The position numbers and the translations under genes are program-made. The notes beneath the pieces are model-generated. The model saw nothing but the letters and a program-made list of their open reading frames with translations. It searched no databases and had not been told where the DNA came from. Positions 30,065 through 44,461 of a stretch of DNA of 47,935 bases are shown one piece after another. Position 1 is the stretch's first letter; each line of letters opens with the position of its first letter. Source of the stretch: Deltaproteobacteria bacterium (GTDB taxonomy: Bacteria > Desulfobacterota > Binatia > UBA9968). The DNA lies in assembly GCA_016193465.1 (NCBI GenBank), contig JACPSE010000038.1, positions 1-47,935 on the forward strand, read 5' to 3'.

Positions 30065-31062
30065 CAAGATAGAAAGCCTGCATGTCCCGTCCCCTCCGCA
30101 TCGAATTTCCCGGCGCATATTATCACGTGATGAACCGGGGTCTCGCCAAGGAAGTGATCTTTAAAACCGATATTGATCGGCAAGCCTTTCTGGATTTGCT
30201 GGGCGATGTGCACGCCCGGTGGGAACTCAGGATCTACAGCTACTGCTTGATGAGCAATCACTACCATCTATGCGTCCAAACCGCTGCCGTTGCGCTGGCC
30301 CGAATTATGCGGCACGTGGATGGTGTCTACACGCAGCAATTCAACCGCAAATACCACCGCGATGGTCCACTCTTCCGCGGACGGTACAAAGCAATTCTTG
30401 TTGAGCGGGACCGCTATCTATTGGCTGTCGCCCGCTACATCCATCAAAACCCGGCAGAGGCCCATATAGTCTCACAGCCAGAGCAGTACCACTGGAGTAG
30501 TCTTCGACATTACGTCACTCATCGCGGAAGGCCACCGTGGCTAGATACAGAAACTCTGCTCGCCTATTTTGGCGGTGAGGACAGGTCATTTTTAGAATTC
30601 ATGCACAGCAAACCAGACCGGGACATCGAGGAGTTTTACCGGTCTTCCCGCACAGGGCCTATTCTGGGATCTGAGGGGTTCAAGGAGTGGATCAAATCGC
30701 AGGCGGGCGTAGGGCAGATTGATCGCGAGGTCCCAGAGCGCCGCCATCTCGCTGTCAAGCTCGATACTTGTGTACAGGCCGTAGCACGGGCTTGCAAGGT
30801 CGAAGAGGACATCGTTACACGGCAGCGCCGCGGAGTCGGCAACATGGCCAGACAGATTGCTATGTATATCTGCCGCGAAATAGGCGGTTATAATCACCGA
30901 GAAATCGCAAAGAGGTTAAATGTCGGAAGCTACTCTACGGTAAGCTCGGCGTGCGCGCTGATGAAGAAAAGATTGGAGCAGGATCAAGCCCTGCGTGAAC
31001 AAGTCGCGAAGATCCGTAGGCAGCTGTCCACCCACTATGGACATCCAGCGACTTGACCCCTT
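30029..31062 (+). mobile_element. RAYT element with 18-bp terminal inverted repeats
   Basis: A perfect 18-bp inverted repeat (30029-30046 and 31045-31062; left end AAGGGGTCAAGTCGCTGG) brackets a single transposase gene. The left end lies in the reading frame of the molybdenum subunit, and the right end overlaps the transposase stop codon. No target-site duplication is visible, as expected for HUH-type transposition. The GGGGTC-type end resembles REP-like ends found next to RAYT genes in other genomes. Confidence 0.8.
30082..31056 (+). CDS. REP-associated tyrosine transposase (RAYT), Y1_Tnp with C-terminal DnaA-like domain
   Basis: The 324-residue protein has the HUH metal site NHYHLCVQT (His60 and His62) and the nucleophile Tyr119 in VARYIHQNP. 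The family start FPGAYYHVMNRG and the GPLFRGRYKAILVE segment are also present. The C-terminal 80 residues (MARQIAMYICREIGGYNHREI, then YSTVSSACALMKKRL) resemble the DnaA DNA-binding helix-turn-helix. Such proteins cut and rejoin single-stranded DNA at hairpins. The gene looks intact, so the element may be active. Confidence 0.93.
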   Translation: MSRPLRIEFPGAYYHVMNRGLAKEVIFKTDIDRQAFLDLLGDVHARWELRIYSYCLMSNHYHLCVQTAAVALARIMRHVDGVYTQQFNRKYHRDGPLFRGRYKAILVERDRYLLAVARYIHQNPAEAHIVSQPEQYHWSSLRHYVTHRGRPPWLDTETLLAYFGGEDRSFLEFMHSKPDRDIEEFYRSSRTGPILGSEGFKEWIKSQAGVGQIDREVPERRHLAVKLDTCVQAVARACKVEEDIVTRQRRGVGNMARQIAMYICREIGGYNHREIAKRLNVGSYSTVSSACALMKKRLEQDQALREQVAKIRRQLSTHYGHPAT

Positions 31063-33715: not shown

Positions 33716-34825
33716 CTAATTTTTATGATCAGAGATGGCGATCCTGTGCGGCGCCGGTCGTTGAGGGATGCTCAAAAGAACATGAGTCCCGATATTGGGT
33801 TGGCTCCTTATCTCCAGGGTCCCGCCGAGAAAATCGGTCAGGCGACGGGCTATGGTCAATCCCAGCCCCATACCGGAAAACTGGCGCCGGAATGAGCCGT
33901 CCATCTGCCGAAATGGCTGAAACATACCCTCAATCTGGTCTCGAGGAATCCCCATTCCTGTATCTATGATCTCCAAATCCACGACTCCCCTGGTGACGGA
34001 CCGATGCAACTTCACGGCAATCTGCCCTCTTAGGGTAAACTTGACGGCATTGTGCAAGAGATTCTGGAAGATCCGGGCGACCTTAGCTGGGTCGCTAACC
34101 GCGCGCATACCTGGTGGCGATTGAATGGATAGTTCGATCCCCTTCTCCTCTACCAGCCTGGAGTATCGCTCGGCGGTTTGCTTGACCATCAACCCGAAAT
34201 CGAACTCTTTCTCGTCCAGACAGAGGTCCCCGGCGTTTAGAGAAGTCAAACAGAGCACATTATCGATGAGTTCGAGAAGTTCCTCGGAATTCTTATAGAC
34301 CCTCTCCAGGGCCCTCTGTTGCTCCTCCGTAAGCTTGCCGATAAGTTGATCCAGGAGAATAGAAACAAACCCGACCACGACGCTCAGGGGAGTCCGCAAC
34401 TCGTGCGAGACATTGGCCAGGAACTCCGACTTGATCTGTTTGAGTTTTAATCTGGCATTTCTCCGTTCGAGCGCGCACCGCACCAGAGTGAGAATATGGT
34501 CCACGTCGAAGGGCTTTGACACATAATCAAATGCCCCCAATCGCAATCCTTCAATGGCTGTATCCATCGAGCCATAGCCGGTGATTATAATCGCCTCAAT
34601 ATCGGGGTCGCGCTGTTTGACCTTTTCCAGCACCTTGGTGCCAGTAAGGCCGGGCATTTTTAGATCCAGAGTAACCAGGTCGATGGGAATCTGATTGAGG
34701 ATTTCAATCGCCTGCCCGCCCCTCTCTGCCGTGAACACATTGAAATAAGGCTTGAGGATCATCTTCAACGATTCTCTGGGTCCCATCTCATCATCAACAA
34801 TAAGTATATTTGCCCTATCCACCAT
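33716..34825 (-). CDS. Hybrid response regulator-histidine kinase
   Basis: The product is about 369 residues when started at the ATG at 34825 (MVDRANILIVDDE), which has AGGA at good spacing. A GTG at 34858 would add 11 residues. A receiver domain (phospho-acceptor Asp53 in LDLKMPG, Lys in SKPFD) is followed by a HisKA domain (His140 in VSHELRTPLS) and a HATPase_c domain with NLLHNAVKF, DTGMGIP and GMGLGL. No membrane segment is present, so it is a cytosolic relay. It is the last gene of the minus-strand signalling cluster, 238 bp after the NtrC-type gene. Confidence 0.92.
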   Translation of the reverse strand: MVDRANILIVDDEMGPRESLKMILKPYFNVFTAERGGQAIEILNQIPIDLVTLDLKMPGLTGTKVLEKVKQRDPDIEAIIITGYGSMDTAIEGLRLGAFDYVSKPFDVDHILTLVRCALERRNARLKLKQIKSEFLANVSHELRTPLSVVVGFVSILLDQLIGKLTEEQQRALERVYKNSEELLELIDNVLCLTSLNAGDLCLDEKEFDFGLMVKQTAERYSRLVEEKGIELSIQSPPGMRAVSDPAKVARIFQNLLHNAVKFTLRGQIAVKLHRSVTRGVVDLEIIDTGMGIPRDQIEGMFQPFRQMDGSFRRQFSGMGLGLTIARRLTDFLGGTLEIRSQPNIGTHVLLSIPQRPAPHRIAISDHKN

Positions 34826-34929
34826 AAGATCCTGCAGATTCTTAAAATGAATTTGCACGCAGATAGAGCAATTCGTATGCCAGTGGTCCGAGCGCGCTAA
34901 CTTTCGGAATTTTAAAAGATTATTAGATT

Positions 34930-35012: not shown

Positions 35013-35063
35013 ACTAGACATTGTGATTTTTCGCGCCGGAAGGGCAGAGAGCAAATTTGACCA

Positions 35064-36473
35064 CTACCCGGACAGTTTTGTCTGGTCCGAGTCAAGTTCG
35101 CTCTCTGTAATCTGAAGCTTTTCCATCCGATACCGCAACACCCGGCGGCTGGTCCCTAACACAAATGCTGCCTTGGTTTGGTTGAACCCGGTCTGCTGCA
35201 GGGCTTTCAAAATCATCTCCCGCTCGAACTGGTCCACTGCTTCGCTCAATGGACGTGAGCCCTGAAGCGCTTTCTTCTTTAAGGAAGCAGTCTGATCCTG
35301 AGAGCGCATGCCTTCAGGCAGGTCCGCCGGCATCACAGTCTCACGAGGAGAGAGGATGGTGAGTCTCTCGATAAGGTTTTCCAGCTCTCTAACATTCCCG
35401 GGCCATGGGTAAGACATCATGCGATCAATCACTTCCGGGGAAAGGGTCTTGGGTGTCAAAGAGTTTTCTTCGGCCTTGAGCTTAAGGAAGTAATCCAGCA
35501 GCAGGGGGATATCCTCCCTCCTTTCTGCCAGTGGCGGGAGGCGCAAAGAGACCACGTTGAGCCGGTAGAAGAGATCGCGGCGGAAGTCGCCAGCGGCGGC
35601 AAGTTTCTCCACGTCTCGGTTGCTGGCCGCGATCACGCGGACGTCAACTTTGATTTCCTGGGTGCCGCCAAGGCGATGAAACGTTTCTGTTTCAATGGCC
35701 CTCAGAAACTTAGCCTGCGTTCCCAACCCAAGCTCCCCTATCTCATCGAGGAAAAGAGTTCCACCATGCGCTATTTCAAAATGACCGGCCTTGCGCTGGT
35801 GGGCGTTGGTAAACGCCCCTTTTTCATAACCGAACAGCTCGCTCTCGGTCAGCGCGTCCGGCAGGGCAGCGCAGTTAACCACGATAAACGGCTTAGCGCA
35901 CCGGTCGCTGTTATAATGGATGGCGCGGGCAATCAGCTCTTTGCCGGTCCCGCTCTCGCCAGTAATGAGGACCGTGCTCTTTTTTCCCGCCACCATACTC
36001 ACAACCTTATAGATCTCCAGCATGGGCCTGGATTTTCCCACAATGTTCTCGATGCCGTATTTCCGTCCCACCTCCTCCTTGAGGCGCTCCAGCTCGCTGG
36101 CTAGCTGGATTTTCTCGAGAGCGCGGCTCACTCTCAGGCGGAGCTCGTCTACGTCAAAGGGTTTGGTGACGTAATCAAAGGCGCCCGATTCCTTCGCGGC
36201 AAATGCCGTACGGGCGGTGTTTAAGGCCGTCAACATAATCACTTGTCCCGCCGGGTGGATTGCCTTGATCCGCTTGAGAGTATCGAGACCGTTGCACCCG
36301 GGCATCAAGATGTCCAGGAGAATAATCTCGGGCTTTCCCTCACCGACTCTACGGATAGCCTCTTCGCTGGATCTGGCCTCGCAGAGCCGGAAGTCCTTCC
36401 CGAAGATAAGGCGGATGGACTCTCTCACACCGGCTTCATCATCGACAATCAGTAGTGATGGTTGACTCATCAT
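35064..36473 (-). CDS. NtrC-family sigma-54 dependent response regulator
   Basis: The 469-residue activator has a receiver domain (Asp54 in LLDILMPG), an AAA+ domain and a Fis-type helix-turn-helix. Walker A is GESGTGKE, Walker B is GGTLFLDEIGEL, and the arginine-finger region RLNVVSLRLPPLAERREDIP is present. The C-terminal HTH is at FNQTKAAFVLGTSRRVLRY. The sigma-54 contact loop reads GAFTNA instead of GAFTGA. It probably activates sigma-54 promoters after phosphorylation by the neighbouring kinases. It lies 19 bp downstream of the pseudo-domain protein gene. Confidence 0.93.
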   Translation of the reverse strand: MMSQPSLLIVDDEAGVRESIRLIFGKDFRLCEARSSEEAIRRVGEGKPEIILLDILMPGCNGLDTLKRIKAIHPAGQVIMLTALNTARTAFAAKESGAFDYVTKPFDVDELRLRVSRALEKIQLASELERLKEEVGRKYGIENIVGKSRPMLEIYKVVSMVAGKKSTVLITGESGTGKELIARAIHYNSDRCAKPFIVVNCAALPDALTESELFGYEKGAFTNAHQRKAGHFEIAHGGTLFLDEIGELGLGTQAKFLRAIETETFHRLGGTQEIKVDVRVIAASNRDVEKLAAAGDFRRDLFYRLNVVSLRLPPLAERREDIPLLLDYFLKLKAEENSLTPKTLSPEVIDRMMSYPWPGNVRELENLIERLTILSPRETVMPADLPEGMRSQDQTASLKKKALQGSRPLSEAVDQFEREMILKALQQTGFNQTKAAFVLGTSRRVLRYRMEKLQITESELDSDQTKLSG

Positions 36474-36492: not shown

Positions 36493-38370
36493 TCAGGCAG
36501 CCGGGAGCTCCGCCCGGATCAGCACCTTTCCCCCATCGAGTTGGTTGATTTTGATCCCTCCCCCGTTCCTTTCAACCAGGATCTTGGCAAGAAGAATCCG
36601 GAGCGGAAAGCCCTGATCTTCTACATCCGAGGAAGGGCTATCGAGATACTGTGTTAACGCGCTCATCCGTCCACCCTCGGGGAGATAGGAGACAGCCACT
36701 CTTCCCTCCCCTTCCACATCAATCTGGATTTCGCCCTGCGGCTTCACCTGAGCCAGCACGCTTTGAAGGACGTTCTTAAACGCGTAGCGGAACTGCGCCT
36801 CGTCCACAAACACCTCCCCGCCTTCCGCTTTTTTCCCCCAACGGATAGTTGCCCCTCTCTTGAGGCACTCCGGGACGATTTCTTCCAGGACCCGACGCAG
36901 TTGTTCGTAGAGCGAAATCCTCTCAGCGACAGGATGGGTAAAGCGCGAAAAATCGAGCATGGCCTCCAACACGTCATCCATGCGCTCTATGTCGCCGCCT
37001 ACCGTCTCCTGGAACCGGACACGGAAGGCAGCATCATCAAATCGATCGCCCAAGAGTTGAGCAAAAGTCTTGATCGTCACCATGGGATTTTTTAATTCAT
37101 GGGCAAGCTCGTTCATGAGAACTCTGATATCAAGCGAGTCGCCATTCTTCGGCCGGGAAATGGCCTGGTGCCCATTTCCTGCCGGAAGAGAAATGCCGGG
37201 ATGCTGTTTTTCTGGCTTCTCCTCAACCACCGGCCTCTCCTCAGTAACCGGCTTCTGCGGAGCCGCGGCCGGTACTGCGACGGCTCCTTCCTCCATACCC
37301 AGGACCAATTCCGACGCTTCAATGATTCCTTTTCTGTGGATGGCCAGGGTCCTGGCGATCACCGCCTCCAGTTCATTCAAGTTGCCAAACCAAAGATAGT
37401 TGCAAAGCCGCTCCATTGCCTCCGGAGTAAAGCTGACCTTTCCCAGATTGAGCCTTTCCCCGTACCCCTGAGCCAGCGCCGCAGCAAGAGAGGGCAGCTC
37501 CGCCTGTCTCTCCCTGAGAGGCGGCAACCGGAGCGTCAGTGTCGCCAGACGATAATAGAGGGGACTCAAGAACTCCCCCCGATAAACTTTCTCTAAGAGG
37601 TCCTCCTGCGAGCTTGATAGAATCCAAAATTGACTCCCCTTTTCCTCCTCGTCCTCCAGAAACCTTAGCAGAGAGAGCTGGGCCAAAGCGTGCAGCGTCT
37701 CCAGGTTACCGAGAAAAAGGGTAAACCTCTGTCCCATTCCATCCGCGCCAGCGGCCAACTGATCGATCTGCCCAAGAAGGCAGTCCCTGGTTATCTCTGG
37801 GGGGTAGGCAGAGATCCAGGGCCCGGCTTTGTCATTTAAAGAGCGAATGGCTCGAGCCACCCTCTCTTGGCCGCAGCCTGCCTCTCCTATGATAAGAATC
37901 GGAAACGGCGTCAGGGCATACCTCTCGGCCAGGGCAGAAGTCGCCTCTGGTAGATAAGGAAACTCCAAATAATGTCCGAGGCGGCTCTTTGCTGGCGAGG
38001 TTAGGGTCGGAGCTTCTGGGGGGATAGAGGATTGGGCCAAAAGCCGCTCCACCTTTTCCTTAAGCTCGTAAGGATTGAAGGGCTTTACCAGGCAATCGGC
38101 TCTGCCGAGTCCTTTCCAGAGGTTCGCCGCGGATCTTGAGTTAACAAGCACGAGAACCGGGTAGGAAACCTGCGCGGCGACTTTGCTGATAATAAAAGGC
38201 TCTCTCTCCACTGCAGGAGGAACACCCAGGATCAAAAGATCCGCTTCCGTATCCGCGAGACTATCATCGGCGAGGGGCAGACGTTGGACGACGGTAAAAT
38301 CGCGCTGCAGGATGATGGCGAGCGTTTCCCGAACTGCCGGAGACTCGTCAACTACTAGAATCCTTTTCAT
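36493..38370 (-). CDS. Degenerate receiver / AAA+ / histidine-kinase fusion
   Basis: The 625-residue protein combines three modules, all apparently changed at catalytic sites. The receiver (1-115) has ILVVDE and VKPFNP, but the phospho-acceptor position reads LILGVP (Gly instead of Asp). The AAA+ region (about 140-350) has the P-loop GEAGCGQE with Gln instead of Lys, no GAFTGA loop, and LFLGNL in place of LFLDE, although RLATLTLRLPPLRERQAEL is well kept. The C-terminal part has a kinase DHp helix with His in LAHELKNPMVTIKTF, but the ATPase lid motif D-x-G-x-G is missing. It overlaps the upstream kinase gene by 23 bp. I infer a scaffold or pseudo-kinase that tunes the neighbours. Confidence 0.85.
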   Translation of the reverse strand: MKRILVVDESPAVRETLAIILQRDFTVVQRLPLADDSLADTEADLLILGVPPAVEREPFIISKVAAQVSYPVLVLVNSRSAANLWKGLGRADCLVKPFNPYELKEKVERLLAQSSIPPEAPTLTSPAKSRLGHYLEFPYLPEATSALAERYALTPFPILIIGEAGCGQERVARAIRSLNDKAGPWISAYPPEITRDCLLGQIDQLAAGADGMGQRFTLFLGNLETLHALAQLSLLRFLEDEEEKGSQFWILSSSQEDLLEKVYRGEFLSPLYYRLATLTLRLPPLRERQAELPSLAAALAQGYGERLNLGKVSFTPEAMERLCNYLWFGNLNELEAVIARTLAIHRKGIIEASELVLGMEEGAVAVPAAAPQKPVTEERPVVEEKPEKQHPGISLPAGNGHQAISRPKNGDSLDIRVLMNELAHELKNPMVTIKTFAQLLGDRFDDAAFRVRFQETVGGDIERMDDVLEAMLDFSRFTHPVAERISLYEQLRRVLEEIVPECLKRGATIRWGKKAEGGEVFVDEAQFRYAFKNVLQSVLAQVKPQGEIQIDVEGEGRVAVSYLPEGGRMSALTQYLDSPSSDVEDQGFPLRILLAKILVERNGGGIKINQLDGGKVLIRAELPAA

Positions 38371-39844
38371 GAACTTGAGGGTAAGCCTTCGCTTGGTGGT
38401 TCGGCGGCCTCACTGGTAAATTGATGAAAAAACTCGTTCCTTTGCCAACCCGACTCTCGACGATGATATGGCCTCCGTGCTCCTGCACGATCTGATTGGA
38501 GATGGAAAGGCCGAGCCCGCTCCCGTCCTTTTTGGTGGTAAAGAAAGGATTGAAGACATCCTCCAGATCCTTCTCTGGAATTCCCACGCCGGAATCTCGA
38601 ACTTCGACCTGGACATATTGCGCGGAACCGTTCTTGGTGAAGAGCCGGGTGGATACCTCAACCACTCCCCCACCCTCAATTGATTGGAACGCATTCAGGA
38701 TGATGTTCATGGATACCTGTTTTATCTGTTCCTTGTCAATAAAAATCTTCGGCAGATTCGTTGCCAGACGGCGATAAATCTGGATCTCCTTCTCCTTGGC
38801 CTCGCTCTCCAAGATCCGAACGGTGCTCTCGACAATCTGACTGACGTCCTCAGCCGAAACATTGGGGGCCGAGGGACGGGCGAAGCTCAGAAGGTCGTTG
38901 ATTAATCCGCAGATGCGGTCCACCTCCTTGAGAGCGAGCCCCTGAAAATTGTTGCGAAATTCCGGATCCTGGTAGCGCTCGGGCAGAAGCTGCGTAAAGG
39001 TTCGGATAGCCACCAGGGGGTTGCGAATCTCATGGGCCAGGCCGGCAGTCAACATGCCCAAAGAGGAGAGACGGTCAGCCCGTCGGATGATGCTCTGGGA
39101 TTGCTTGAGCTCCTTTTCCCTATGCATGAGCCGCTCGGCCATCTGATCAAAGGCCGTGGCGAGGCTTCCGATTTCGTCGCTCCTTTGCAACGAAACCCGG
39201 TACTGGAGATCGCCCGCCTCAATGTGTTTTGCAGCCTGAGTTAATTTCCCTATAGGCTTGGTCATCCTCATCACGATGCCGAAGATAATCAGCAACCCGA
39301 CTAAAAATATGCCTGTGGAAATTCCTAGCGCCCTGAAGGTAGCCGTGTTCATCTCGTCGAGAATAGGATTGAGGTTAAACCCTAGCCGGATCCCCCCGAG
39401 CTTTTCGTGGCCCAAGATCACCGGCTTGGAAACATCCAAAATCCCTTTTTTGTAGTCGATCTCTGTAAGGGTTTCGTTGGATCTTATAATCCTTTGGCTC
39501 AGTTCGCCGGTGAAGATGGAAAAGAGCAGTCGTCTATCTTCGTGAAAATCTCCCACAATTCTGCCTTCGGCATCATAGATGTAGGCATACTCTACGTTGG
39601 GCAGGGCTTTTGCCTCCCGGGTAACTGTATTGAGCTGAGTAATATCCAACTTATAGAGATGGGCAGCGACACTTAACTCCATTAGGCTAATCCCTGCCTT
39701 AGCTCTTTCACCCATCTGCTTTAAGAGCAGGTTTCTTTGGGATCGTATTGTCAGATAGGTCAGGGCGCCTAAAGCAGCTAAATAGAAGATCGCGACGGAG
39801 AAAAATATCCTTAGCTTAAGGCTAATTTTAATCTTTGGGATCAC
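38348..39844 (-). CDS. Membrane-bound sensor histidine kinase
   Basis: The 498-residue kinase has TM1 (about 11-32), an extracytoplasmic sensor region (about 35-168) and TM2 (about 172-194). HAMP (about 195-247) and HisKA with His271 in LAHEIRNPLVAIRTF follow, then HATPase_c with NIILNAFQS, DSGVGIP, FFTTK and GSGLGLS. All catalytic boxes are intact, unlike the next gene. It is preceded by the PhnD-like binding protein gene by 9 bp, so a bound periplasmic protein may present its ligand to the sensor. The cognate regulator is probably the NtrC-type activator. Confidence 0.93.
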   Translation of the reverse strand: MIPKIKISLKLRIFFSVAIFYLAALGALTYLTIRSQRNLLLKQMGERAKAGISLMELSVAAHLYKLDITQLNTVTREAKALPNVEYAYIYDAEGRIVGDFHEDRRLLFSIFTGELSQRIIRSNETLTEIDYKKGILDVSKPVILGHEKLGGIRLGFNLNPILDEMNTATFRALGISTGIFLVGLLIIFGIVMRMTKPIGKLTQAAKHIEAGDLQYRVSLQRSDEIGSLATAFDQMAERLMHREKELKQSQSIIRRADRLSSLGMLTAGLAHEIRNPLVAIRTFTQLLPERYQDPEFRNNFQGLALKEVDRICGLINDLLSFARPSAPNVSAEDVSQIVESTVRILESEAKEKEIQIYRRLATNLPKIFIDKEQIKQVSMNIILNAFQSIEGGGVVEVSTRLFTKNGSAQYVQVEVRDSGVGIPEKDLEDVFNPFFTTKKDGSGLGLSISNQIVQEHGGHIIVESRVGKGTSFFINLPVRPPNHQAKAYPQVHEKDSSS

Positions 39845-39853
39845 GGGTTGCCG

Positions 39854-40771
39854 CTACCACGAATCGACTTGTTTCCCCAGTGACGAAAAAACGAACCTCT
39901 CTATATCTCTTAGCTGCTCCAGTGATCCTGGGGGGACCTCGTCGATCTTAGTTGTACTCTGCTGTCCCTTCAGTGCCGCTTGACCTTCTGGATCTTTATC
40001 CATATTGATTGATATCTCTCTAAGGGCTGCAACTATCTTAGGGTCGAAATCCTTGCGTACCGAGATGAGCAGGCGCGGTACGGATCTTGTGCTGGCGATA
40101 ACCCTGAGTCCATCTTGAATCTCTGGCCTCAACCCTTTAAGTTCCCTGTAGGAGGTGGCAGCGGCATCGACTCTGCCGGTAACCAACAGATGGAGTGACT
40201 CTCCATCGTGGTTATGAACAAAGCCCACCATATTGGGCTTAGTTCCACCAGGGGAGATGACCTGAACCAGTTTGAGCTTCTTCTCAGCCAAAAGCATTCG
40301 GGGAAGAATGTGAGCAGAGGTCGAGTGAGGCTCATCAAAGGCAATGACTTTGCCCTTCAAATCAGTTAGAGTATCGATGCCGCTATTCTTCCTGACCAGG
40401 ATGACGCCATAATATTCAGCCTCCCCGTACTTCCACTGCCTTAATATAGGGACAGAGCCCGACCACTTTGAGAGCACCATCGTTGGCACAACACTGTCAT
40501 GGAAGAGATCGACTTTGCCCTCTTTAATGGCTCGAGCAAGCAAGTGCATTTTCTCTACCACTAATATTCTCCCTCCGGTAATACCCAGAGGGGCTAGTTT
40601 CTTAGCTATATAGTCGACAAATCCCTGTCGATGTTTTATCGCTGCAACCGGATCATCGTGCACTCTTCCAAAGACGAGAAACCTTTCTTCCGCCGCGAGA
40701 GCATGCCCGAAAGCGAGTAGGAGAAATAAAGCAAGAGGACTAAGGATAGAGAGTCGCTTGTAACAGTACAT
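39854..40771 (-). CDS. PhnD-like periplasmic substrate-binding protein
   Basis: The 305-residue protein has a signal peptide (LALFLLLAFGHALAA) and the PhnD/phosphonate-binding fold. Recognisable segments are DLFHDSVVPTMVLSKW, YYGVILVRKNSGIDTLTDL, KGKVIAFDEPHSTSAHILP and GRVDAAATSYRELKG. PhnD-type proteins bind phosphonates, phosphite or related anions. No matching ABC permease or ATPase is nearby, and the gene sits 9 bp from a membrane kinase gene, so a sensory role is likely. Confidence 0.85.
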   Translation of the reverse strand: MYCYKRLSILSPLALFLLLAFGHALAAEERFLVFGRVHDDPVAAIKHRQGFVDYIAKKLAPLGITGGRILVVEKMHLLARAIKEGKVDLFHDSVVPTMVLSKWSGSVPILRQWKYGEAEYYGVILVRKNSGIDTLTDLKGKVIAFDEPHSTSAHILPRMLLAEKKLKLVQVISPGGTKPNMVGFVHNHDGESLHLLVTGRVDAAATSYRELKGLRPEIQDGLRVIASTRSVPRLLISVRKDFDPKIVAALREISINMDKDPEGQAALKGQQSTTKIDEVPPGSLEQLRDIERFVFSSLGKQVDSW

Positions 40772-43210: not shown

Positions 43211-44461
43211 ATGGCCAGGCTCCCCCTATTAGCGGGCGCGCCTCTCGTATGTCTCACGCTGCTGCTCCAAGAGGCCTCAGGCGGCGGTTATGCCCTCCCC
43301 TATCAGAGCGCCAAAGCTGTAGGCCAAGGCAATGCCATGACGGCAGGTGTCAACGACCCATCGGCCGTCTACGCCAACCCGGCGGCCCTCTCTGAGGTTG
43401 AAGGGAACCAGATCCAGGGCGGCCTGCAGTACATCAATGTCGTTAGCGGCGTCACGAACAGCGGCAGGAAGTCGCGCAATCAGCACGACGATAATTTCAT
43501 CCCCACTCTCTTCGCCAACTATCAAGTACCGGGGACCGACTTAGTGATGGGAATCGGTCTCTACACGCCTTTCGGCCTCGCGACAAGCTACGGTGAAAGG
43601 AGCTTCACGCGCTTTGGCGCCGTTCGCTCGGAGTTGAGGACCTTTTACCTCACTCCCGCTATTGCCTGGCGGGTCAACCCTTCTCTTTCGGTTGGGGGAG
43701 GGTTGAGTTTCGTCCACTCCTCGGCGCTTTTTTCTCGCGCTCTATTCTTGGGCGGAGGGGCAGAGGGGAAAATCCGTCTCACGGACACGGACAACGGATA
43801 CACCTTCAACCTGGGAATGCTTCTTAAGCCAGATGAGAGATGGAAGGTCGGCATCACGTACAGGGGCCGGGTAGACTTGAACTACGACACCGCTGATGTG
43901 AAGGTTGCCGATGCCGCGGGTGTCGTGGAAACCGGCAAATCCAAAGGGACCCAGATCCCCTTACCCCCGGTCATCAGCTTTGGGCTTCATTGGCAAATGA
44001 CGCGCGAGTGGGGAGTGGAGTTCGCCTACGACTACACCCACTGGAACGAGTTCCGCCATCTAAAGGCGCGCTTCAATCGCGCCTTTTTAGGCGGCGCGCT
44101 GCGCGGGTTATTCATCCAAGAAAGATGGAAAGACACCCACACCTTGCGCCTGGGAAGCAACTATCAACTCAGCCCGGCTTGGGTGGCGAGGGCAGGGATA
44201 GTCCTCGACGAGAGCCCTATTCCCGCGAGCACCCTGGGGCCATCCATACCTGGAGCAGACACCTTAACCGTCAATGCCGGCTTGGGTTACCGGTGGGATC
44301 ACTGGAGTCTAGATGTAGGTTACGCGGCTATCTTCTACAAAAATAGAAGTGTCCTGAACAATGTCCTGGAGGCCAGCAGCTCCAGCACGCTTACCCCAGG
44401 CCGAGACCGCTACCGGACCTTTGATAATTTTGTTTCACTCACCCTGGGGTACAAGTTTTGA
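43211..44461 (+). CDS. FadL/OMPP1 family outer-membrane transport protein
   Basis: The 416-residue protein has a signal peptide and the family start GGGYALPYQSAKAVGQGNAMT, followed by NDPSAVYANPAALS. The C terminus ends with an aromatic residue (SLTLGYKF), typical of beta-barrel insertion. FadL channels take up hydrophobic compounds such as fatty acids or aromatics. The ATG follows AAAAGGGG. It is divergent from the HTH gene and converges on glnS, with stop codons 2 bp apart. Confidence 0.9.
   Translation: MARLPLLAGAPLVCLTLLLQEASGGGYALPYQSAKAVGQGNAMTAGVNDPSAVYANPAALSEVEGNQIQGGLQYINVVSGVTNSGRKSRNQHDDNFIPTLFANYQVPGTDLVMGIGLYTPFGLATSYGERSFTRFGAVRSELRTFYLTPAIAWRVNPSLSVGGGLSFVHSSALFSRALFLGGGAEGKIRLTDTDNGYTFNLGMLLKPDERWKVGITYRGRVDLNYDTADVKVADAAGVVETGKSKGTQIPLPPVISFGLHWQMTREWGVEFAYDYTHWNEFRHLKARFNRAFLGGALRGLFIQERWKDTHTLRLGSNYQLSPAWVARAGIVLDESPIPASTLGPSIPGADTLTVNAGLGYRWDHWSLDVGYAAIFYKNRSVLNNVLEASSSSTLTPGRDRYRTFDNFVSLTLGYKF

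Follow-up and report, generated by a model that had tools for sequence, protein, structure and literature searches.

What can a signalling protein do when many of its catalytic motifs are missing? The window, by which we mean the whole 47,935-nt stretch of DNA analysed here, encodes at 36493-38370 (minus strand) a 625-aa protein that we call PSEUDO. An earlier note, made from the letters alone, had seen in it an inactive receiver, an inactive AAA+ domain and a degenerate kinase, and had suggested a scaffold modelled on the neighbouring signalling proteins. We asked which parts of PSEUDO are dead, for how long they have been so, and what the remainder could be doing.

Domains and fold of PSEUDO

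36493-38370, minus strand: PSEUDO, ATG start, 625 aa, consisting of pseudo-receiver, pseudo-AAA+, DHp and pseudo-CA
38026-38370, minus strand: pseudo-receiver, aa 1-115; Gly49 replaces the phospho-Asp, and the Lys of KPF is kept
37291-37983, minus strand: pseudo-AAA+ of NtrC type, aa 130-360; P-loop glycines present, Lys changed to Gln168, no Walker B, GAFTGA loop deleted
36931-37143, minus strand: DHp hairpin, aa 410-480; H-box intact (His424/Asn428), under the strongest purifying selection within PSEUDO
36493-36930, minus strand: pseudo-CA (Bergerat fold), aa 481-625 and the stop codon; without N, G1, F and G2 boxes

Pfam recognised NtrC-type and kinase parts in PSEUDO (Sigma54_activ_2, 7e-13; Sigma54_activat, 8e-11; AAA_lid_14, 4e-13; HisKA, 2e-9) and gave a sub-threshold Response_reg match (0.024); it found neither HATPase_c nor an HTH or other DNA-binding domain, and there was no family match beyond the component domains. 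Alignment to the live neighbours confirmed the motif losses that the earlier note had read from the sequence. The phospho-Asp of the receiver is Gly49, which makes this domain a pseudo-receiver, and around it the second acid has changed from D to E and T/S to V, with the Lys of KPF retained. Walker A reads GEAGCGQ, with Gln168 for the Lys, the acidic DE pair of Walker B is Gly221 Asn222, the GAFTGA loop is deleted and the sensor II Arg is Asn. The ATP-lid motif of the kinase is indeed absent, and with it the N-box Asn, G1 Asp, F-box and G2 glycines. The DHp helix does keep its His, in an intact H-box, LAHELKNPMVTIKTF (His424, Asn428). Judged by its motifs, with the H-box alone of five boxes, PSEUDO is not an active HisKA histidine kinase, and its front half is a worn NtrC-like receiver-AAA+ unit without the parts for phosphorylation or sigma-54 contact.

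An AlphaFold2 model of the full-length protein, with an alignment of 64 full-length family members as input, showed the expected folds (mean pLDDT 85), including a (beta-alpha)5-like receiver, and a disordered linker at residues 367-411; the DHp-CA part modelled alone reached a pLDDT of 85.5. NtrC1 and NtrX headed the fold matches of the front half, with VpsR also among them, and those of the DHp-CA part were HisKA kinases and DivL. PSEUDO is apparently cytoplasmic. Rfam and tRNA scans of the whole window gave no match.

An old family with shared losses

A search for the same architecture, as the earlier note had advised, recovered about 75 PSEUDO homologues with the same losses, spread over the host class and other classes of the phylum. 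At a strict cut-off they occur in 45 of 148 genomes of the host class and, once NtrC-only rows are removed, in about 29 of 395 from the other classes; the rows left out (G340, G167, G203) cover residues ~2-373 only and are probably ordinary NtrC proteins. Divergent forms are also present below the cut-off, in families f7 and f10. Identity to PSEUDO is ~65-68% among genus-mates and falls to ~22-25% at the edge of the family. In the search beyond the phylum, our one scan of genome contigs for close relatives returned one congener and otherwise unrelated weak matches, the plasmid search returned ordinary NtrC only, and we found no paper on this architecture in the open-access literature.

Some motifs are missing throughout. 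Virtually no member retains an N, G1, F or G2 box (G1 Asp retained in 0 of 67, the central Gly of G2 in 2 of 67), and the GAFTGA loop is deleted in every one; loss of sigma-54 contact and of the kinase ATP site thus dates to the root of the family. The receiver Asp persists in 7 of 56 aligned members. The Walker A Lys survives in 27 of 66, mostly in lineages other than the window's, and the acidic Walker B pair in 18, again mainly in other lineages, so the AAA+ domain decayed gradually. Nearly all members keep the W, N and E residues of the lid and sensor II together with an LR.R motif, and most keep the P-loop glycines. The receiver has been lost in families f24, f7 and f10 and the P-loop also in f7 and f10 (L238, L239, L241 and L242 in f7; L234 and L235 in f10), with the H-box and the position upstream of NtrC retained in all three. 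Some of these reduced f7/f10 proteins have HQ or HR in the H-box instead of HE, three f7 members having HQ. Because the losses are ancient and shared by orthologues, recent decay in this genome only, the outcome that the earlier note had set against its own reading, is excluded.

Selection on the H-box and hairpin

The His and the Asn at H+4 are present in 68 of the 68 members that cover the site and in six divergent ones from f7/f10 (74 in total), and Pro is conserved like them. Between congeners, dN is 0.031-0.056 in the DHp hairpin, the most constrained domain of PSEUDO, against 0.25-0.30 in the receiver and 0.17-0.21 in the AAA domain. For the whole gene dN/dS against congeners is 0.16-0.18, and for the DHp about 0.02-0.03, ratios that are approximate because synonymous sites are near saturation. 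The missing catalytic motifs might be taken as marks of a decaying pseudogene or an annotation artefact. We give that explanation practically no credence, and reject a pseudogene, on the dN/dS values and on a reading frame that is open in about 75 genomes; gene order, too, is conserved phylum-wide. Nor is the motif pattern due to chance, given the Pfam E-values, the whole-gene dN/dS and orthologues with the same losses.

Most members keep an E/DxxN motif beside the His (H-E-x-K/R-N). In f24, L129 and f7 the acidic residue at H+1 has become Arg, Lys or Gln, a change that makes autophosphorylation unlikely and may still permit phospho-acceptance. By its sequence, the phospho-accepting hairpin does not look inactive. 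No other part of the protein is as well conserved, and the hairpin outlasts both the receiver and the P-loop; here the proposal of a scaffold made of three inactive domains is not supported.

A four-gene module

38348-39844, minus strand: HK1, live sensor kinase (HAMP-HisKA-HATPase_c) with Cache-like sensor matches below cut-off; paralogue of the PSEUDO DHp-CA
35064-36473, minus strand: live NtrC-type sigma-54 activator with receiver Asp, Walker A/B, GAFTNA and Fis-type HTH
33716-34858, minus strand: fourth gene (RecHK), live receiver followed by HisKA-HATPase_c; the receiver is conserved phylum-wide, the output domain varies
39854-40771, minus strand: PhnD-type periplasmic binding protein, adjoining HK1; part of the window's variant of the module

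PSEUDO extends 23 nt into the upstream HK1 gene and lies 19 nt from the NtrC gene, in keeping with the overlap and abutment first described, and the order HK1, PSEUDO, NtrC, fourth gene recurs throughout the phylum. Nearly all homologues adjoin an NtrC-type gene, their usual place being between a sensor kinase and a receiver-effector gene, and in most loci the HK1 and PSEUDO genes overlap or abut. Catalytic motifs are intact in all aligned partners (53 NtrC and 38 HK1 proteins). NtrC is the most constant neighbour of PSEUDO, even where HK1 is unlinked: HK1 is not adjacent in some families of the host class, and an HK1-like kinase lies elsewhere in 11 of 17 such genomes and was not clearly found in the other 6.

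The receiver of the fourth protein is strongly conserved (VDDE.GPRESL.MIL; for example in the window at 33716-34858, L120:3408-4541 and L110:1549-2745), with a HisKA-HATPase output in the window and, by its HD...HDxGK...HHE..DGTGYP motifs, an HD-GYP output in f24. Several loci have no fourth gene beside PSEUDO, and contigs often end there. In G017 (L236) and G139 (L237) a fourth-gene receiver occurs without PSEUDO beside it; f10 and f7 genomes were rejected as further such cases, divergent PSEUDO being present in them below the cut-off. On sequence, the module thus has the parts list of a His-Asp-His-Asp relay: a single live kinase, a His domain that lacks its ATP site, and two receivers that are live.

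The surroundings of the module vary. The commonest HK1 is a HisKA_7TM-GAF kinase of ~720 aa and PrsK type; the window and six relatives have an HK1 with a different, Cache-like sensor beside PhnD-type binding protein, MFS and VTC genes. The Cache-like sensor (sub-threshold matches) with HAMP replaces the ancestral HisKA_7TM-GAF, a swap seen in about seven relatives. Many genomes have, after the fourth gene, a Cys-containing protein of ~235-255 aa with RC..C near its N-terminus (L110:614-1375, L120:2630-3388, L054:11457-12161, L115:2198-2926), without a Pfam or NCBIfam match in the examples tested. A FadL-type outer membrane transporter lies near the module in several genomes (window 43211-44461, plus strand; L054:1925-3331; L115; L052), and other genomes have a FabF-type ketoacyl synthase on the upstream side of HK1, a possible link of the module to lipid or hydrophobic substrate uptake. 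Elsewhere in the window, the N-terminal sequence encoded at 30082-31056 (plus strand) resembles REP-associated (IS200-like) transposases.

Origin of the two halves

A tree that included 29 further kinases from the genome placed PSEUDO in a single clade (support 1.0), sister to HK1 (0.985). The sister node had a support of 0.673 in a DHp-only tree and 0.198 when more kinases were added, a sampling in which the clade of PSEUDO with HK1-like kinases reached 0.897. HisKA kinases and HK1 are the nearest sequence relatives of the kinase half, and the DHp hairpins of PSEUDO and HK1 are alike along their whole length. These relationships point to an ancestry shared between the DHp-CA half and HK1, with loss of the ATP site at the base of the family. 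Derivation of PSEUDO from its neighbours, as first proposed, thus holds for the kinase part. The adjacent NtrC is no nearer to the NtrC half than other NtrC proteins of the genome, which score equally, and a duplication of that gene is unsupported.

We take positions H+7, +8, +11 and +12 to be those at which HisKA proteins contact receivers and set specificity. PSEUDO has V, T/S/A, T and F there and HK1 has V, A/S, T and F, residues that differ in RecHK and the other kinases of the genome. Because PSEUDO matches HK1 at these positions, the comparison suggests that both dock on one receiver, that of NtrC.

A sigma-54 promoter before the fourth gene

34867-34882, minus strand: sigma-54-type -24/-12 promoter TGGCATACGAATTGCT, upstream of the fourth gene
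35049-35062, minus strand: palindromic upstream site GGTCAAATTTGCTC, directly past the NtrC stop codon; family consensus GNACAAATTTGTNC

Of 39 loci, 27 have a promoter of the form TGGCAY-N5-TTGCW, with at most one mismatch to the consensus, a short distance before the fourth gene, where chance would give 0.004 per 320-nt stretch; in three further loci such a promoter falls barely inside over-extended fourth-gene ORFs. Many loci also have a palindrome near GNACAAATTTGTNC a short way past the NtrC stop codon; in 24 of 53 it reaches shuffle p <= 0.05. Among 20 sigma-54-type sites fetched from the host genome, the module's own is the only one with a clear upstream palindrome, and the other 19 gave no sign of a wider regulon. 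The promoter and upstream palindrome, conserved through the phylum, with the palindrome not clearly seen at the other sites fetched from the genome, make it most likely, as a strong inference, that NtrC activates the fourth gene, probably as a direct target. This promoter with its palindromic upstream site is new here.

What PSEUDO may do

A lost ATP site, an invariant His and Asn, contact residues like those of HK1 and one constant receiver neighbour are best explained by a phosphotransfer or phosphatase device. Our best reading is that PSEUDO would be a kinase-derived protein of this kind acting on NtrC, and it is probably a relay or an off-switch for the adjacent gene regulator, not a dead scaffold. 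More specifically, and with somewhat less than even confidence, we propose that PSEUDO is a conserved histidine phosphotransfer protein, dead as a kinase, within a sigma-54 signalling module of four parts. The DHp hairpin would dimerise and be phosphorylated on its His, the donor being either one of the module's receivers (the fourth-gene receiver is the simplest candidate) or HK1 as its partner in a heterodimer. The hairpin would hand the phosphoryl group to the adjacent NtrC receiver, or strip it from there. The pseudo receiver-AAA+ half, where present, probably docks on NtrC, and is dispensable in some lineages. Once active, NtrC would use the palindromic site to switch on the sigma-54 promoter that precedes the fourth gene. 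PSEUDO would function like ChpT, Spo0B or PhyT, having arrived there independently and fused to a pseudo-NtrC. A wider proposal, which we hold more loosely, is that of an undescribed, phylum-wide phosphotransfer family that descends from the kinase of this very module, with an origin separate from those of Spo0B, ChpT and PhyT, and that acquired a receiver-AAA+ copy by fusion, the pseudo-NtrC half bringing the relay His to the real NtrC and so setting a sigma-54 switch over the module's own second receiver gene.

Phosphotransfer has points against it. No ChpT- or Spo0B-specific relation in sequence or fold was seen, neither protein being among the sequence matches or the top-50 fold matches of PSEUDO. 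Several loci have beside PSEUDO no fourth gene, which would most easily supply the second receiver, and selection could instead have retained the His for a phosphatase activity. In that case PSEUDO would serve NtrC~P as a dedicated phosphatase or as a sink for its phosphate: the hairpin would bind the NtrC receiver and hydrolyse or back-accept the phosphate, with HK1 as kinase and PSEUDO as off-switch. Such a device needs no second receiver and agrees with the E/DxxN motif, with the HK1-like receiver contacts and with the constancy of NtrC even when HK1 is unlinked; PhyP/PhyT, with its degenerate ATPase domain, has itself been proposed as a PhyR phosphatase (PMC5898713). However, several lineages have Arg, Lys or Gln in place of the motif's acid, and the His, which cannot be bypassed for phosphotransfer, is reported to contribute to HisKA phosphatase activity without being essential for it (PMC12632262), yet is invariant in PSEUDO. 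We regard this alternative as possible but rather unlikely.

Partnership with HK1 seems improbable to us. Here PSEUDO would resemble DivL, RetS or ChrS: its DHp would pair with the HK1 DHp and tune HK1, perhaps being phosphorylated in trans by the HK1 CA domain. The paralogous hairpins and the overlapping or abutting genes fit, pseudokinase-kinase heterodimers are known from ChrS/HrrS (PMC9491836), and DivL is among the better fold matches; but in many members of the class PSEUDO lies beside NtrC with no adjacent HK1, the six genomes in which an HK1-like kinase was not clearly found included, and pure allostery needs no invariant His, DivL having a Tyr there. Less probable still is a scaffold or decoy whose pseudo receiver-AAA+ half joins the NtrC ring and either poisons or organises it, the kinase part being only a docking piece. 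The retained lid, sensor-II, LR.R and P-loop residues and the receiver-AAA+ fold of the front half would suit such a role, and VpsR is generally known as a receiver-AAA+ protein that works another way. Against it, the H-box persists where the receiver (f24, f7, f10) and the P-loop (f7, f10) are gone, and the strongest constraint falls on the DHp, not the AAA domain.

Comparison with known systems

ChpT, PhyT and Spo0B are precedents for the phosphotransfer that we propose. VpsR, a degenerate NtrC-type regulator whose action departs from the usual sigma-54 mechanism, shares the receiver-AAA+ architecture with PSEUDO but keeps a DNA-binding domain, of which PSEUDO has none. In the sigma-54 activators NtrC, AtoC and PrsR, the receiver and AAA+ domains are arranged and folded as in PSEUDO; unlike them, PSEUDO lacks phospho-Asp, Walker B, GAFTGA and HTH, and carries a DHp-CA at its C-terminus instead. 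The ancestral HK1, with its HisKA_7TM-GAF-HisKA-HATPase arrangement, is like PrsK of the XrtA/PEP-CTERM PrsK-PrsR system, and the module's NtrC resembles PrsR/AtoC, but HK1 and NtrC score far below the PrsK/PrsR cut-offs. We know of no pseudokinase in that system, and our literature search found none there.

As in ChpT and Spo0B, a conserved phospho-acceptor His in a DHp hairpin is joined in PSEUDO to a degenerate ATP-binding domain. ChpT of Caulobacter, a kinase-derived histidine phosphotransferase, has a phospho-His DHp hairpin followed by a Bergerat-like domain unable to use ATP, and is proposed to act between receivers (PMC3433190). It has no receiver-AAA+ half, and it serves the hybrid kinase CckA, whereas HK1 is not hybrid. 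PhyT/PhyP and Spo0B are likewise phosphotransferases regarded as degenerate histidine kinases, and PhyT also counteracts its regulator (PMC5898713). However, PhyT is a membrane protein of HWE/HisKA_2 type and Spo0B a small protein of its own type; PSEUDO is of HisKA type and fused to a pseudo-NtrC. With pseudo-histidine kinases such as DivL and the ChrS variant, PSEUDO shares a kinase module without autokinase activity, but DivL has Tyr550 in place of the phospho-His, and PAS sensors, whereas the His of PSEUDO is invariant.

Implications

Pseudo-receivers and pseudo-histidine kinases are common yet mechanistically unexplained (PMC12632262), and PSEUDO combines both with a pseudo-AAA+ domain in a single protein. 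The conserved promoter and its upstream site provide a ready reporter. About 75 natural variants set the parts that can be lost (receiver, P-loop, acidic H+1) against those that cannot (His, H+4 Asn), and because they separate the two, the role of a kinase-dead kinase becomes directly testable. With PSEUDO, kinase-derived phosphotransferases would have one more independent origin.
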